Shown: positions 3,720-10,127 of the stretch, piece by piece
Layout of the letters: each line of letters begins with the position of its first letter
Numbering within the stretch: the first letter of the stretch is position 1
NCBI GenBank assembly: GCA_913061465.1
Contig: CAJXSU010000018.1
Location: 1-33,831, forward strand
Origin: an uncultured Flavobacterium sp.
Lineage (GTDB): Bacteria; Bacteroidota; Bacteroidia; Flavobacteriales; Flavobacteriaceae
DNA length: 33,831 bases
Direction of reading: 5' to 3'
Program-made: the position numbers and the translations under genes
Notes under the pieces: generated by a model
Database searches by the model: none
The model's input: the letters and a program-made list of their open reading frames with translations, nothing else
What the model was told of the DNA's origin: nothing

Positions 3720-6011
3720 TTAATTCTTTATAATTCTCTTTGTAGTTAGTTTAACGCCATCAGAAAGCTTCAGTATATAAACTCCTTTTTCTAATTGACT
3801 TATGTCTATACTATTTGTGACGGATTCTTTCATTAGTTGTTTGCCAAGAATATCATAAACAACAACGTTTAAATTAGTATAATTACCATCAATGTATACC
3901 AAATCTGAGGTAGGATTAGGATAGATTGAGATGTCTAATTGATTTAGGTCATCTACACCAGCTGTTGCACATTCTAATTGGTCTCCAGTAAATCCCCATC
4001 CTTTGTCATCTATTAAACTTTGTCTAGCATTCTCTCCAACACAATAGGTTAAGTTAACAGCACCAAATAAAACATTAGGCTTAACATTTTGTTCTGCCCA
4101 ATCTATTAATAATGCATCATAATTAGTTTTAGATAGGCCAGAGTTGTCAAACATATTTTCCATATCAGTAACACTAATTATATTCCATTCACTAATATCT
4201 TGGTTAAAAGCGGTTGCTTCAAAAAACATAGAATTCATGGTAGGAACATTAATAGTATTCCAATTACTTATATCTTGATTGAAAGATATTGCATTAGAAA
4301 ACATAGAACTCATATCTGAAACACTAATTGTGCTCCAATCGCTTATATCTTGATTAAAGCTCGTTGCACCTGAAAACATAGAACTCATATCATTAACACC
4401 AATAGTATTCCATCCATTTATTTCTCCATTGAAAGATATTGCATTAGAAAACATAGAACTCATGTCAGTAACACTAACGGTGTTCCAATCATTTAAACTT
4501 TTATTAAAAGATGATGCACCAGAAAACATAAAACTCATATTTGTTACTCCTAATACATTCCAATTATTGATATTTTTGTTAAAAGAAATAGCGTCTTCAA
4601 ACATGTTTTCCATAGTATCTACAGAAAACACCTCCCATTCGCTTATATCCTGATTGAAAGACGATGCACCTTTAAACATGAAACTCATATCTGTAACATT
4701 AATTGTATTCCAATCACCTATATCTTGGTTAAATAATGATGCGCCAGAAAACATATATTGCATGTATTCAACATTACCGGTATCCCATCCACTTATGTCT
4801 CTATTGAAAGAGAGTGCGCCAGAAAACATATATTGCATGTATTCAACATTACCAGTATCCCATCCGCTTATGTCTCCATTGAAAGATATTGCTCCATCAA
4901 ACATTTTAAATGTACTTCTAACTTCGGATGTATTCCAATTACTAACATCCTTATTAAAGGAAGATGCATTATTAAACATAAAATACATAGAATTTACATT
5001 ACTCACATTCCAATCTCCAATTTCTTGGTTGAAAGAAACCGCGCCTGAAAACAGTCCAACTGTAGAGGTAACATTACTTGTATCCCAATCACCAATCTCT
5101 TGATTAAAGGAGATTGCACCATCAAACATATAACTCATATCATTTACATTACTGGTATCCCAACCACTTATGTCTCCATTAAAAGATATTGCTTCACTAA
5201 ACATTCGGTCCATTTCAGTAACATTACTTGTATTCCAATCCGTGAGGGATTGGTTAAAACTATCTGCCCCAAAAAACATATACTCCATAGAAGTAACATT
5301 GCTTGTATTCCATTCACTTATGTCTTGATTGAAAGATGTAGCTTCAACGAACATCCAACTCATATCAGTTACATTACTAACATCCCAACTATTTAAAGGT
5401 TTGTTAAATGATTTTGCATTATAAAACATAAAATTCATATTCGATACTTTACTAACATCCCAAGAACTTAAATCTTGATTAAATGATGCTGCATCTCTAA
5501 ACATATCTTTCATATTTGTAACGTTACTAGTATTCCAATCGCCAATATCTTGATTAAAATCTTTCGTTCCACTAAACATGTTTTCCATATCAATTACCCT
5601 ACTAACATCCCAATTACCAATATTTTGATTAAAAACCATATCAGCAGGAACATGGCTAGATTTCCCAAACATCTCCCTCATGATGATAACATCACCTGTG
5701 TCCCAATCATCTATTGGTTGATTAAAATCATCTGCTTCATAAAACATTTTACTCATAAGTCTAACATTGGAAACATCCCAATTACTTATATCTGCATTAA
5801 AAGTACTTCTATTTTTGAAAGTGCCTGACATATCATCTATATTACTGACATCCCAATCTGGCATTATTCCATGAGGACTATTGGTACACAGACCATCAAT
5901 TGGGTTTGTAGCTAAACATTGGATTACAGCAGCAGACCAATTATCATCTGAAAGTTGAGAATACGATGCGGTAGAAAGTGTAATTGCTAAAATAAGTAGT
6001 GTTTTTTTCAT
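3720..6011 (-). CDS. Secreted BspA/DUF285-type repeat protein with T9SS sorting domain
   Basis: 763 residues. The N-terminus is a Sec signal peptide (MKKTLLILAITLSTASYS). Residues 53 to about 626 are about 23 repeats of 25 residues with the pattern W-[DN]-x-S-x-V-x-x-M-x-x-M-F-x-x-A-x-S-F-N-x-x-[IL]-x-x. This is the BspA-like surface protein repeat (DUF285/PF03382). A Cys-containing linker follows. The last ~80 residues, starting near ISIYPNPTSDLVYIDGN and ending LKLSDGVKLTTKRIIKN, are a type A sorting domain for type IX secretion, so the product is probably exported and anchored at or released from the cell surface. Related proteins are often linked to adhesion; the ligand here is unknown. 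The gene stands alone, with tRNA-Leu downstream and a 267-nt AT-rich gap upstream. Confidence 0.93.
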   Translation of the reverse strand: MKKTLLILAITLSTASYSQLSDDNWSAAVIQCLATNPIDGLCTNSPHGIMPDWDVSNIDDMSGTFKNRSTFNADISNWDVSNVRLMSKMFYEADDFNQPIDDWDTGDVIIMREMFGKSSHVPADMVFNQNIGNWDVSRVIDMENMFSGTKDFNQDIGDWNTSNVTNMKDMFRDAASFNQDLSSWDVSKVSNMNFMFYNAKSFNKPLNSWDVSNVTDMSWMFVEATSFNQDISEWNTSNVTSMEYMFFGADSFNQSLTDWNTSNVTEMDRMFSEAISFNGDISGWDTSNVNDMSYMFDGAISFNQEIGDWDTSNVTSTVGLFSGAVSFNQEIGDWNVSNVNSMYFMFNNASSFNKDVSNWNTSEVRSTFKMFDGAISFNGDISGWDTGNVEYMQYMFSGALSFNRDISGWDTGNVEYMQYMFSGASLFNQDIGDWNTINVTDMSFMFKGASSFNQDISEWEVFSVDTMENMFEDAISFNKNINNWNVLGVTNMSFMFSGASSFNKSLNDWNTVSVTDMSSMFSNAISFNGEINGWNTIGVNDMSSMFSGATSFNQDISDWSTISVSDMSSMFSNAISFNQDISNWNTINVPTMNSMFFEATAFNQDISEWNIISVTDMENMFDNSGLSKTNYDALLIDWAEQNVKPNVLFGAVNLTYCVGENARQSLIDDKGWGFTGDQLECATAGVDDLNQLDISIYPNPTSDLVYIDGNYTNLNVVVYDILGKQLMKESVTNSIDISQLEKGVYILKLSDGVKLTTKRIIKN
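4134..5855 (-). repeat. Tandem 75-bp coding repeats, about 23 units
   Basis: Each 25-residue unit corresponds to 75 bp. Unit 3 (residues 103-133) is 31 residues long because of a 6-residue insertion (GKSSHVPADMV region). Units 1-12 mostly keep SNV at positions 4-6. Units 16-23 replace it with varied residues (INV, FSV, LGV, VSV, IGV, ISV). Units 14 and 15 are almost identical at DNA level: about 61 bp (4741-4801 and 4816-4876) with only two differences, so they look like a recent duplication. Confidence 0.9.
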
Positions 6012-6278
6012 AGGAGTATATTAATATTATATTAATAAAGTGAATAAATTTTAAAAAGGTTGCGTGGAAATTAAAATATTAATAATAGCTGGTTAAAGCT
6101 TAACTAATCTTCTTTTAGATTTGCAAAGATTAGATTATTTAAAATAGTAAATTCATAGCAATGTAAAATTAAAAAATTAATTATGTTCATGAAAAAAAAG
6201 ATTCACAAAAAAATCTTAAAAACTAGTTTTAATTTTTTTAATGTATGAATATTGATGAGATTAAAACACCAGGCTAGA

Positions 6279-6632
6279 TTAATTTTGAATAAAACTATAA
6301 TCAATTTCTTTTACAGAAATTTTTTGATATTCTTTTGCAGATTTATTGTTAAATAATTTTTTTAATTCGTCTATTTCTTGTTGATTAAATAATAAAACCA
6401 AATTTCCTTGTAGTGTTGGTATTGGGATGTTCTTTTTTACTTTAGGGCAAGGATAGTTTTCATTCCAATATGTAGTATCTAAATGTAAAATATATTTTTT
6501 AAATTGAATGTATTCTTTTTCTGTAAACTCAAAAAAAATGTTATTGAAGGTAAGATGGTAATGATCACAGTTAGTGCAAATAGTTAACTCTCCACTTTTT
6601 ACTTTTCCTATTGTTTTTATATAATTACACAT
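6279..6632 (-). CDS. Small Cys-containing protein, possibly DUF6686
   Basis: 117 residues starting MCNYIKTIGKVKSGELTICTNC, with no signal peptide or membrane segment. Cys2 and the CTNC pair followed by HYH look like a metal site. TFNNIFFEFTEKEYIQFKKY and the spaced aromatic residues recall a short conserved Bacteroidota family that I believe is DUF6686, but I could not check this. Function is unknown. It is codirectional with the repeat-protein gene, but the 267-nt gap between them (6012-6278) is AT-rich and shows no ORF, so joint transcription is doubtful. That gap has an AT-only palindrome next to the downstream start and otherwise nothing I recognise. Confidence 0.7.
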   Translation of the reverse strand: MCNYIKTIGKVKSGELTICTNCDHYHLTFNNIFFEFTEKEYIQFKKYILHLDTTYWNENYPCPKVKKNIPIPTLQGNLVLLFNQQEIDELKKLFNNKSAKEYQKISVKEIDYSFIQN

Positions 6633-6669
6633 AACATCATTTGTTTATTTAGATTTAATAAAAATTATT

Positions 6670-6840
6670 TATATTTGTAAATATAAAATAGAATCATTCT
6701 AAATAAAAATATTATTAACTATTTTTTAGATTATATTTTATATACGAGTGAATACTATTAATTCTTACAGATGAAATTAATTCTACTCTCTTTACTATTT
6801 AATTTGAATTTAGCTCCTCAGAAATGAGGAGTTTTTTTTA
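6670..6840 (+). ncRNA. Candidate small transcript with mini-ORF
   Basis: A TATATTTG box at 6670-6677 could start a transcript near 6683 that ends at the clear terminator of 6812-6840, giving an RNA of about 155 nt. No annotated + strand gene explains that terminator. The transcript contains an 18-codon ORF, ATG 6771 to TGA 6827, reading MKLILLSLLFNLNLAPQK, whose stop codon lies inside the terminator hairpin. The box overlaps a perfect inverted repeat (6668-6676/6679-6687). It could be a small RNA, a small membrane peptide, a leader, or a remnant of a lost gene. No matching -35/-33 element at normal spacing was found. Confidence 0.35.
6812..6840 (+). terminator. Intrinsic terminator with GAAA tetraloop
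   Basis: A stem of about 9 bp (6812-6820 with 6825-6833, GCTCCTCA/TGAGGAGT) is closed by a GAAA loop and followed by eight T's on the + strand. Read on the minus strand it is followed by CTAAATTC rather than T's, so it should act mainly for + strand transcription. Confidence 0.85.
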
Positions 6841-6850
6841 TTGAAGATTA

Positions 6851-7930
6851 TTAATTTTTTACATCTAATGCATCCCTTAGGGCATTTCCTATTAACATAA
6901 AAGCCATAACCAAACTCATAATTGCTAGTCCAGGAATAACCGCTAAGTAAGGTTTTCCTAGAATAATATAATTGTAGTGATTTTTTATAATTGCTCCCCA
7001 AGATGGAGTAGGAGGTTGAGCTCCTATTCCTAAGAAACTTAACCCGCTTTCTATTAATATCGCTGCAGCGAAATTTGCTGCAGAAATTACAATGATTGGT
7101 GCAATAATATTAGGTAAAATATGTCTAAAAATAATTCTAATACTAGAAAACCCTAAAACATAAGCAGCCTCTACATATTGTTGTTGTTTGGTTGTTAATA
7201 CTTGTCCTCGAACAACTCTAGCGACCTCAACCCACATGGTTAGCCCAACAGCTATAAACACTTGCCAATACCCCTTACCTAAAGCTAAAGTTATTGCGAT
7301 TACCAATAGCAAAGTAGGAATAGACCATGTAATATTAATCAACCACATAATAAATGCATCTATTTTACCACCATAATATCCAGCAACTGCTCCAATCCCA
7401 ATACCAATAAATAAAGATATAAATACAGTAATAAATCCTATAAAAAAAGAGATTCTAGTACCTATTAATAATCTGCTCAAAAGATCTCGACCGTATTTGT
7501 CTGTTCCAAAATAGAAAGTTTTCTTCTTTATGTATTTTTTTGGTGAGTTATCTAGTAATGTTAATTTTATTGTTTTTGGTAATCCATCACCATACCCAAT
7601 GTATTCTAACTCTTCTTTAAGAATGCTATAGGATTGAATGGGAATTTCTGTATTGATCTGTGTACTTCCCATAAAAAGTTTATTAAAAAAAGATTGTGAT
7701 CTTTTTTCTTTTAATGGAATGGTTAACATTTCTACTGTGAAACCTGGTTTTTTTGAATGAATTTCTACATGCATTTGGTTTGCATTCTGACTATTGTCTG
7801 GAGCAATTAAGTAACCAAACACAGCAATAAACCCACAAAAAACAACAAACCAAAAACTAAATAAGCCGATTTTGTTTTGCTTAAATTTTTGAAGAGCAAC
7901 TTTGGAAAGTGATTTTGATTGGTTCATCAT
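6851..7930 (-). CDS. ABC transporter permease, Dpp/OppC type
   Basis: 359 residues. The protein has an N-terminal membrane helix (about 22-42), a long extracytoplasmic segment (about 45-140) and a five-helix BPD_transp_1 permease domain. The coupling loop that contacts the ATPase is EAAYVLGFSSIRIIFRHILP with the expected EAA...G spacing. It ends with GIGAQPPTPSWGAIIKNHYN, as in OppC/DppC-type peptide or nickel permeases. The partner permease, ATPases and binding protein are not nearby, so the system is encoded in scattered loci. Two adjacent ATGs (7930, 7927) are possible starts. The best -7 box (TATTTTTG, 7943-7936) is only 5-8 nt upstream, so the mRNA may be nearly leaderless. Confidence 0.88.
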   Translation of the reverse strand: MMNQSKSLSKVALQKFKQNKIGLFSFWFVVFCGFIAVFGYLIAPDNSQNANQMHVEIHSKKPGFTVEMLTIPLKEKRSQSFFNKLFMGSTQINTEIPIQSYSILKEELEYIGYGDGLPKTIKLTLLDNSPKKYIKKKTFYFGTDKYGRDLLSRLLIGTRISFFIGFITVFISLFIGIGIGAVAGYYGGKIDAFIMWLINITWSIPTLLLVIAITLALGKGYWQVFIAVGLTMWVEVARVVRGQVLTTKQQQYVEAAYVLGFSSIRIIFRHILPNIIAPIIVISAANFAAAILIESGLSFLGIGAQPPTPSWGAIIKNHYNYIILGKPYLAVIPGLAIMSLVMAFMLIGNALRDALDVKN

Positions 7931-7935
7931 TGATT

Positions 7936-7975
7936 CAAAAATAAAAACCTGATAGTTTTTATAAACATATCAGGT
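7936..7975 (-). terminator. Prc terminator overlapping the permease promoter
   Basis: On the minus strand ACCTGATA/TATCAGGT (arms 7968-7975 and 7947-7954, 13-nt loop) is followed by TTTTATTTTTG. The T tract that would end the Prc transcript is also the TATTTTTG -7 box of the permease gene. Confidence 0.65.
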
Positions 7976-8000
7976 CCTTAAAGTTTTAATTTATTTCAGG

Positions 8001-10127
8001 CTAATTTTTAACAATCTTTTGATTGTTCACTAACTTTAATTGACTTAGGACATTTAATGCCTCTGAAATATACAGATCTTTTGATAGATTTTTGTGCCAA
8101 GTATCTCTTTTTTCTTTTAAATCTTTATTTTCTTTTAAGAGAGGTACTTCATAACCAGGGGAATTGAAAGCTAATCCTGATTTATACTTGAATACTGATT
8201 TAAATTTTTCGGCAAAGTTTTCTTTTTCTTTTGATTCTTTTTGATTTTGTTTGTAGTTTAAAGCGTAAGAATAATCATCTTGCTCTTTTTTTAACCACTT
8301 TGCATATTCGTCAATCAGCTGAAATTTAGGATCTTTATTAATTCTTTCTATACTTGACGTAACAACATCAGAAAAGTTACTATAAGAGTTCACTTGAGTA
8401 TAGGATGCTTGAGGTACTTTATCCCAAGGTAATGCTCCTTCAAGATCGCGCTCTCCATATTTCATATAACTAAAACGGGTTGGCATTGCAATATCTGAAT
8501 AAACTCCCTCAACCTGAGTAGAACCTCCATTAATTCTATAAAATTTTTGAATCGTCATTTTTAAGTATCCCAAATCATCCTTATAATTAGGATAAAATTT
8601 ATTAACAGGTAAAATATTTTGTACAGTACCTTTACCATAGGTTTGATTACCTCCTAGGATAACAGCTCTATTATAATCTTGCATAGCTGCTGCAAAAATT
8701 TCTGATGCTGATGCAGACAATTCATTAACCAATAAAACCAGAGACCCTGTCCATTGAGTTCTAGTATCGATATCTTGTTTAACTACAGCAGTTTCATTTC
8801 TATATTTTACTTGAACAATTGGTCCTTTGTCAACAAATAAACCTGCTATTTTTATAGCTGTATCTAAAGATCCTCCTCCGTTATTTCTTAAATCAATTAA
8901 TAAACCTTCAACATTTTCCTCTTTAAGACGTTCAATTTCTTTTTCCATGTCTTTAGCGGAATCTCTAAAGTTTCTATCATCAAAATTGATATAGAATTTT
9001 GGTAAATCTATTATTCCATATTTTTTTCCATCTTTTTCTACTGTAGATGACTTTACAAATGTTTCGTCTAATTGAACTATATCTCTAGTAATTGTAATTA
9101 CTTGAGTAGAACCGTCAATTTTTTTCTTGACTGTTAATACTACTTTAGTATCCTTTGGTCCTTTAATAAATTTTATGGCATCATCTAAACGCATACCTAC
9201 AATATCGACAGGGTCCTCATTTTCTTGAGCTACTTTTAAAATAATATCTCCATCTTCTAGATCACCTTGTTTCCAAGCTGGCCCTCCAGAAACCAATTCT
9301 ACGATATGTGTGTAAATACCCTTCTTTTGAAGACGAGCACCAATTCCTTCAACTTTACCAGACATATCTTGATCAAAACTTTCTTTAATATTTGGAGGCA
9401 TATAAATGGTATGAGGTCCAAAAGCTTCGGTAATACTATTTAAAAAAGTCGAAAACCAATCACGATGCTCCAATTCATCTATCCTAATGTATAAATTTTC
9501 CATAGAAATCATAACTTCTGCTCTTGCCTTTTTTTCTAGTGTAGAAAAAGATCTCTTTTTATAAGACTTGTCTTTTTTAAACTTTTCTTTATCTAGCTCT
9601 TCTTGTTCTTGAATTTTCCCTATGGTTTGTAATTTGAGCTGTTTTCTCCAATAATTTAGAAGCTCTTTCTCAGAATTAGCATACTCTATTTTTGTATAGT
9701 CTAAATCAATAATTTCATCTTTTTTGTAATTAAAAGGCTTTTCTAAAATAGTACTGTAATAATTTTTTGCATTTTTTATTTTATTCAAAAATCTACCGTA
9801 TACAAGTTTATAAAAAGCGATGTCAGATTCCTTTAGCTGATTGTCTATTTGAAATTTATATTTAGAAAATTCCTTAATATCATTTTTTGTAAAATATCTT
9901 TTAGATTGGTCTAAATCAGTGATAAAATTATTGAATACTATTTCAGAAAAATCATCATTCAATTCTTTTTCAATATAATGACCTCGCGTGAGCATGTAGT
10001 TCAATACAGAAATTAAAACCTTGTCTTTTTCTGGATCTTGTTGGTTGGTAATTTTAGAATTAGCAAAACTAATACTGCTTACTAATAAAAAAAGAGTTAG
10101 AAAAGTGGTGATAAGTTTGTTTCTCAT
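8001..10127 (-). CDS. prc: Carboxy-terminal (tail-specific) processing protease Prc
   Basis: 708 residues from the chosen ATG at 10127, which begins a good signal peptide (MRNKLITTFLTLFLLVSSISF). The frame continues 40 codons upstream to 10247, but that part has no signal or conserved sequence. Domains in order: helical tail-specific protease N-terminal domain (about 30-250), PDZ (about 257-336), S41 protease core, and a charged C-terminal domain. The catalytic Ser (about 473) is in SASASEIFAAAMQDY, and the Lys (about 499) in YGKGTVQ, as in E. coli Prc. It cleaves exposed C-termini of envelope proteins in the periplasm. Candidate -7 boxes read TAAATTTG (10213-10206) and TATTTTTG (10235-10228). 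A terminator follows at 7942-7975. Confidence 0.93.
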   Translation of the reverse strand: MRNKLITTFLTLFLLVSSISFANSKITNQQDPEKDKVLISVLNYMLTRGHYIEKELNDDFSEIVFNNFITDLDQSKRYFTKNDIKEFSKYKFQIDNQLKESDIAFYKLVYGRFLNKIKNAKNYYSTILEKPFNYKKDEIIDLDYTKIEYANSEKELLNYWRKQLKLQTIGKIQEQEELDKEKFKKDKSYKKRSFSTLEKKARAEVMISMENLYIRIDELEHRDWFSTFLNSITEAFGPHTIYMPPNIKESFDQDMSGKVEGIGARLQKKGIYTHIVELVSGGPAWKQGDLEDGDIILKVAQENEDPVDIVGMRLDDAIKFIKGPKDTKVVLTVKKKIDGSTQVITITRDIVQLDETFVKSSTVEKDGKKYGIIDLPKFYINFDDRNFRDSAKDMEKEIERLKEENVEGLLIDLRNNGGGSLDTAIKIAGLFVDKGPIVQVKYRNETAVVKQDIDTRTQWTGSLVLLVNELSASASEIFAAAMQDYNRAVILGGNQTYGKGTVQNILPVNKFYPNYKDDLGYLKMTIQKFYRINGGSTQVEGVYSDIAMPTRFSYMKYGERDLEGALPWDKVPQASYTQVNSYSNFSDVVTSSIERINKDPKFQLIDEYAKWLKKEQDDYSYALNYKQNQKESKEKENFAEKFKSVFKYKSGLAFNSPGYEVPLLKENKDLKEKRDTWHKNLSKDLYISEALNVLSQLKLVNNQKIVKN

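Follow-up and report, generated by a model that had tools for sequence, protein, structure and literature searches.

Why should a promoter box and a terminator, both on the plus strand, stand between two minus-strand genes where no plus-strand gene is annotated? In the window, i.e. the complete stretch of 33,831 nucleotides analyzed here, these elements are located between a DUF6686 gene (PF20391; 6279..6632, minus strand) and the gene of an OppC-type ABC permease (6851..7930, minus strand), whose stop codon (6851-6853) lies 11 nt beyond the T run of the terminator. Beside the DUF6686 gene lies a gene (3720-6011, minus strand) for a protein of 763 residues that carries repeated DUF285 stretches and a Por secretion tail; in the related genomes G007 and G010, nothing of this kind stands between DUF6686 and an M20 peptidase.

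The plus-strand unit and its close copies

The elements which an earlier note had read from this DNA were all located. The intrinsic terminator (6812..6839, plus strand) consists of a stem of nine pairs (6812-6833) with a GAAA loop and a run of eight T's (6832-6839); the box TATATTTG (6670-6677, plus strand) lies within an inverted repeat with 9-base arms (6668..6687; TTTATATTT-GT-AAATATAAA). An 18-codon ORF (6771..6827, plus strand; MKLILLSLLFNLNLAPQK plus TGA) ends in the 3' arm of the terminator stem, where its stop codon occupies positions 6825-6827. With the start taken from the -7 box and the end from the terminator, a short RNA of about 157 nt is predicted (6684..6841, plus strand). Over positions 5500-8500, one terminator-like site was observed versus 0.8 (sd 0.8) in shuffles, and 16 promoter-like sites versus 17.6. 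Such consensus counts do not exceed chance in these 3 kb, and the argument is therefore built on comparison with related loci.

When 59 genomes were searched with the DNA, two long relatives emerged, in G007 and G010, with 83% identity each over query positions 2-200; five named contigs came from a protein search with the neighboring DUF6686 gene. Two of the five hold the loci of G007 and G010, called L011 and L012, and a further copy, L013 (JABHBC010000065), is more distant. All four copies (window, L011, L012, L013) have the same order, S41 protease - OppC | terminator, leader, promoter | DUF6686; the operator/promoter block and the terminator are kept in the three other genomes. The plus-strand -7 box is present in 4/4 copies, and so is the hairpin with its T run, each time in plus direction. 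OppC shows an identity of 0.44 at fourfold sites between window and L013 (n=108), a value which we take as near saturation. For the same pair, 59/66 positions of the promoter block (8 gap columns) and 27/29 of the terminator (1 gap column) are identical; the RNA body (6711-6770) gave 11/25 with 43 gap columns, and its local alignment did not exceed shuffles (458/500 were as good). For window and L011, the corresponding values are 0.68 for the OppC fourfold sites (n=117), 64/68 for the promoter block, 43/60 for the body, 37/40 for the mini-ORF stretch (6772-6811) and only 23/28 for the terminator; the local alignment of the body reached a z of 15.4. Within this pair, the 3' half of the unit may be under constraint. 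On this evidence, what selection would preserve is that an RNA is made and stopped, more than what this RNA contains.

In the hairpin, 27/27 cells stay paired over three distinct sequences; 5/9 pairs vary on one side and 0/9 on both, so that the pairing is no proof by covariation. GAAA-loop terminators of the same kind were found elsewhere in the order, with look-alikes in G011 and G058. Such hairpins are ordinary, and the terminator sequence alone was therefore not used as evidence of relation. The fold of the RNA (~159 nt) is mildly more stable than that of shuffles (z -2.1; 8/200 equally stable). A long-range pairing between the 5' end and the segment preceding the terminator is not claimed, because no pair changes on both sides and the 5' strand is itself operator. 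When the whole window was compared with Rfam, tRNA alone reached the gathering threshold and there was no hit for the short RNA. A permissive scan of 6630-6880 returned five weak hits, which were rejected: the best was STnc480 on the minus strand (E 0.0086, 30 bits versus a cut-off of 72), the remaining ones had E >= 0.5, and the best three of the five overlap the hairpin.

The promoter block in congeners and the missing cluster

For Riemerella anatipestifer, a Fur box ATTTAGAATTATTCTAAAT and an EMSA with Fur are reported, and -7 and -33 elements are mentioned (passages of PMC5609570). Two sites of the window resemble this box, and the promoter lies between them. Site 2 (6686..6704; AAATAGAATCATTCTAAAT) agrees with the Riemerella consensus at 16/18 positions, more than any other site in the window. 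Site 1 (6647..6665; ATTTAGATTTAATAAAAAT) matches the first seven bases exactly and scores 14/18; this value is reached by six sites in the window and is not special on its own, so that the weight of site 1 comes from the alignment with receptor promoters described below.

The -7 motif of the phylum is TAnnTTTG. The inverted repeat can be read as two overlapping divergent -7 boxes: L011 and L012 have the full pair TATATTTGtCAAATATA, i.e. TATATTTG-t-CAAATATA, and both boxes are also present in L013. In the window one C of the palindrome is missing; the plus-strand box is intact and the minus-strand box reads TATATTTA. The missing base in 6668-6687 thus alters the minus-strand box only, a change which may weaken the expression of DUF6686 in this species.

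The promoter block is collinear with the promoters of TonB-dependent receptors at nine congener loci (L068, L069, L070, L071, L077, L081, L083, L084, L085); L078, an unrelated receptor of the window's own genome, and L082, which has no receptor row, were left out. BLAST identities of the blocks are mostly 77-83%. At 8/9 loci, the exception being L070 (G091), site 2 holds the first ATG of the receptor frame, and the receptors start within the site as MFLN, MSLN or MILN. The operator of L068, L069, L071, L077, L081, L083, L084 and L085 hence also encodes the first residues M-x-L-N of the receptor. At the same position, L013 retains an ATG, followed by a stop after 11 codons, and the window has ATC.

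On the opposite side of this promoter, the congeners carry genes for DUF6607, ankyrin, DUF2271, PepSY/flavoreductase and DUF6686. The DUF6607 protein of the cluster matches PDB entry 8XJC, described as the haemophore RhuH, at 7.8e-90, by which the gene was identified as rhuH. The most complete comparison is offered by G150 (contig JAUIEK010000007), with the order S41-OppC-thioesterase-601aa-HmuY (PF14064)-receptor | promoter | RhuH-Ank-DUF2271-PepSY-DUF6686. In the window, G007, G010 and L013 the order is S41-OppC | unit | DUF6686, and the rest of the cluster is absent: if only the promoter is left between OppC and DUF6686, the arrangement of G150 becomes that of the window. Receptor and rhuH are missing at the site in 4/4 copies.

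The losses were also followed through whole genomes; G000, G007 and G010 are 84, 71 and 90% complete, but in each of them a single contig spans the collapse. A RhuH query (from G005) found 0/3 in G000, G007 and G010 and 3/3 in G091, G150 and G005. Among five genomes searched for HmuY, there was no hit in G000, G007, G010 and G091 and one in G150. With the HmuR-type receptor of G150 as query, the best matches in G000, G007 and G010 were just 27-28% identical; a G091-type receptor compared with the receptors fetched from these three genomes gave at best 28-29% over ~130 residues.

Two further arrangements were seen among the congeners. In G005, an in-frame stop splits the rhuH frame (L069:6523-7431), and this locus is perhaps another decaying rhu locus. 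In G138 (L106:9366-13457), the order is rhuH | promoter | DUF6686-receptor-HmuY.

A DUF6686 search of 146 genus genomes matched 43, and 30 loci were fetched; inspection by eye of the DNA before DUF6686 found the collapsed form in G000, G007 and G010 only, and no promoter-terminator unit before DUF6686 at the remaining loci of these 30. With the L013 copy as query, 56/166 genus genomes matched at E<=1e-5; among the matches listed, only that of the window covers the terminator half, and the terminators of G007 and G010 were missed, which means that this search can overlook terminators. The block also matches outside rhu loci: among eight further regions, three are rhu loci (L106, L110, L113) and five are not. 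The own genome contains two other, weak paralogous hits (both E 1.9e-5), one immediately 5' of a TonB receptor frame (L003) and the other before an unrelated gene (L002).

A Fur-family gene was found in G000, G007 and G010; the same search gave no hit in G091, a genome which has the promoter. Before the DUF6686 gene of a Lutibacter MAG (L015) there is a Fur-like site scoring 16/18. A genome-wide search with a 17-nt Fur core and two mismatches gave 23 sites versus 10 for the reversed control; the 15 loci fetched were, by eye, mostly not beside iron genes, and the core was rejected as too loose to define a regulon.

Interpretation and rival readings

The site is probably a collapsed rhu-type haem-uptake locus, and the plus-strand unit the emptied receptor arm of its two-way iron promoter. 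In the relatives, one Fur-type promoter would drive a haem-type TonB receptor (rhuR, with or without hmuY) in one direction and rhuH-ankyrin-DUF2271-PepSY/flavoreductase-DUF6686 in the other. The lineage of the window would have lost all but the promoter and DUF6686, which now stands directly behind the minus arm and would be expressed from it under Fur control. When iron is short, Fur would leave the DNA and the plus arm would make an RNA of ~157 nt that ends at the terminator and does not reach OppC in antisense. The likeliest role of the terminator is to insulate OppC from this leftover Fur-controlled transcription. Synteny before and after, the loss of rhuH, hmuY and receptor, the collinear promoter and the conserved sites, -7 box and terminator are all read from the sequences; Fur binding at the site and transcription from the plus arm are inferred from them. 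The earlier note had called the transcript an orphan. Comparison supports a plus-strand unit with its own promoter and terminator; the label itself no longer fits an arm that appears to be the receptor side of a Fur-type divergent promoter.

That there is no real plus-strand unit, with hairpin and -7 box occurring by chance and the sites serving DUF6686 alone, seems to us quite improbable. Chance alone would supply terminator-like sites in 3 kb, and the operators could be kept for DUF6686; however, it is the plus-strand box that is retained in 4/4 copies and the minus-strand box that is altered in the window, and the plus-directed hairpin with its T run recurs in 4/4 copies, with 27/29 identical positions in L013. 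Least credible of all is a small hydrophobic peptide as the product of the unit, possibly left over from the signal peptide of the receptor, with translation acting on the terminator, as the earlier note had suggested for the mini-ORF. The ORF is present in the window, and its frame is open over most of its length in L011 and L012 and over part of it in L013. Against this stands the start codon, which is an ATG in 1/4 copies, the aligned triplet being GTA in L011 and L012 and AAG in L013; in the latter copy a TAG lies in the 5' arm of the stem. Of the two features for which that note had proposed a conservation check in relatives, the hairpin is conserved and the start of the ORF is not. By its looks the mini-ORF had seemed a possible descendant of a receptor signal peptide; this is unsupported, as the alignment of the mini-ORF stretch with receptor 5' ends was not beyond shuffles.

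A reading of higher, if still low, probability is that the receptor was lost and its Fur-controlled arm exapted in this flavobacterial lineage for a new iron-responsive sRNA, which would be repressed by Fur and pair in trans with mRNAs at low iron, as RyhB does. An own promoter between Fur-like sites and an own terminator would suit such an RNA, and so would the conservation between window and L011, where the mini-ORF stretch (37/40) exceeds the fourfold sites (0.68) and the body aligns with a z of 15.4. Moreover, complements of a 21-nt core with at most three mismatches gave seven non-self matches in three genomes and none for the reversed control. However, as we read them, 4/7 of these matches are in sense, one lies inside a TPR gene common to G007 and G010, and no gene start is common to the three genomes in this search, which was made without G-U pairs and short seeds; in addition, the body is no more similar to that of L013 than shuffles are. 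We judge this exaptation unlikely.

The reading as a collapsed rhu locus has its own difficulties, namely the block matches outside rhu loci, the missing Fur hit in G091 and the terminator identity of only 23/28 between window and L011. Nor do the data support leader and terminator as descendants of the receptor gene, because no relation of the body after site 2 to the receptor 5' ends of G091 and G150 was detected (alignments not above shuffles) and the hairpin at the end of the G150 operon differs from the terminator of the window.

Known systems and meaning

The closest known system is the rhu bidirectional Fur promoter. In R. anatipestifer, rhuH and rhuR-rhuA are placed on its two sides, and one Fur box is described (PMC11967795). 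The promoter of the window is likewise two-way, with Fur-like sites between the receptor and rhuH sides, and the cluster of the congeners encodes a homologue of RhuH. In contrast to that system, the window contains two Fur-like sites and neither receptor nor rhuH: the place of rhuH is taken by DUF6686, that of the receptor by a short unit with a terminator. As receptor and rhuH are absent at the site, we call it a derived relic, not a member, of the rhu-type promoters. The site is probably such a promoter with its receptor arm emptied.

With RyhB, PrrF, NrrF, HrrF and IsrR the unit has in common, as far as sequence goes, a short intergenic extent, Fur-like operators and an intrinsic terminator. 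As a difference from RyhB-like sRNAs, the conservation of its body between window and L011 does not extend to L013, and the narrow target search described above found no common target start; the relation to these sRNAs was checked through Rfam, with no hit at the gathering threshold. For Rfp18 of Flavobacterium psychrophilum, wide conservation, a strong fold and a requirement in protease expression are described (part of PMC9723704). The predicted unit resembles Rfp18 and other small transcripts of F. psychrophilum in being an independent small transcript of a flavobacterium; it is set apart from Rfp18, going by that description, by its weak fold and its occurrence in four genomes. A Fur-controlled sRNA of Bacteroidota was found neither among the literature matches listed nor in the portions considered of PMC9723704, PMC9618737 and PMC4222909. 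The last of these, in the same portion, names RyhB in general terms and reports that no Hfq orthologue was seen in P. gingivalis. A literature search for "DUF6686" found no paper.

The locus appears to be an informative remnant, not an established new regulator. An anonymous terminator can now be read as the trace of an event in which genes around a shared regulatory region were lost and a promoter arm remained with nothing to express. DUF6686, whose function is not assigned, is linked to iron and haem because it survives behind a Fur-type promoter. The loci before (G150) and after the event (window, G007, G010, L013) form a pair for asking whether emptied promoter arms become sRNAs. If the exaptation were true, the birth of an sRNA would be seen at one locus, and Bacteroidota would have a Fur-controlled sRNA.
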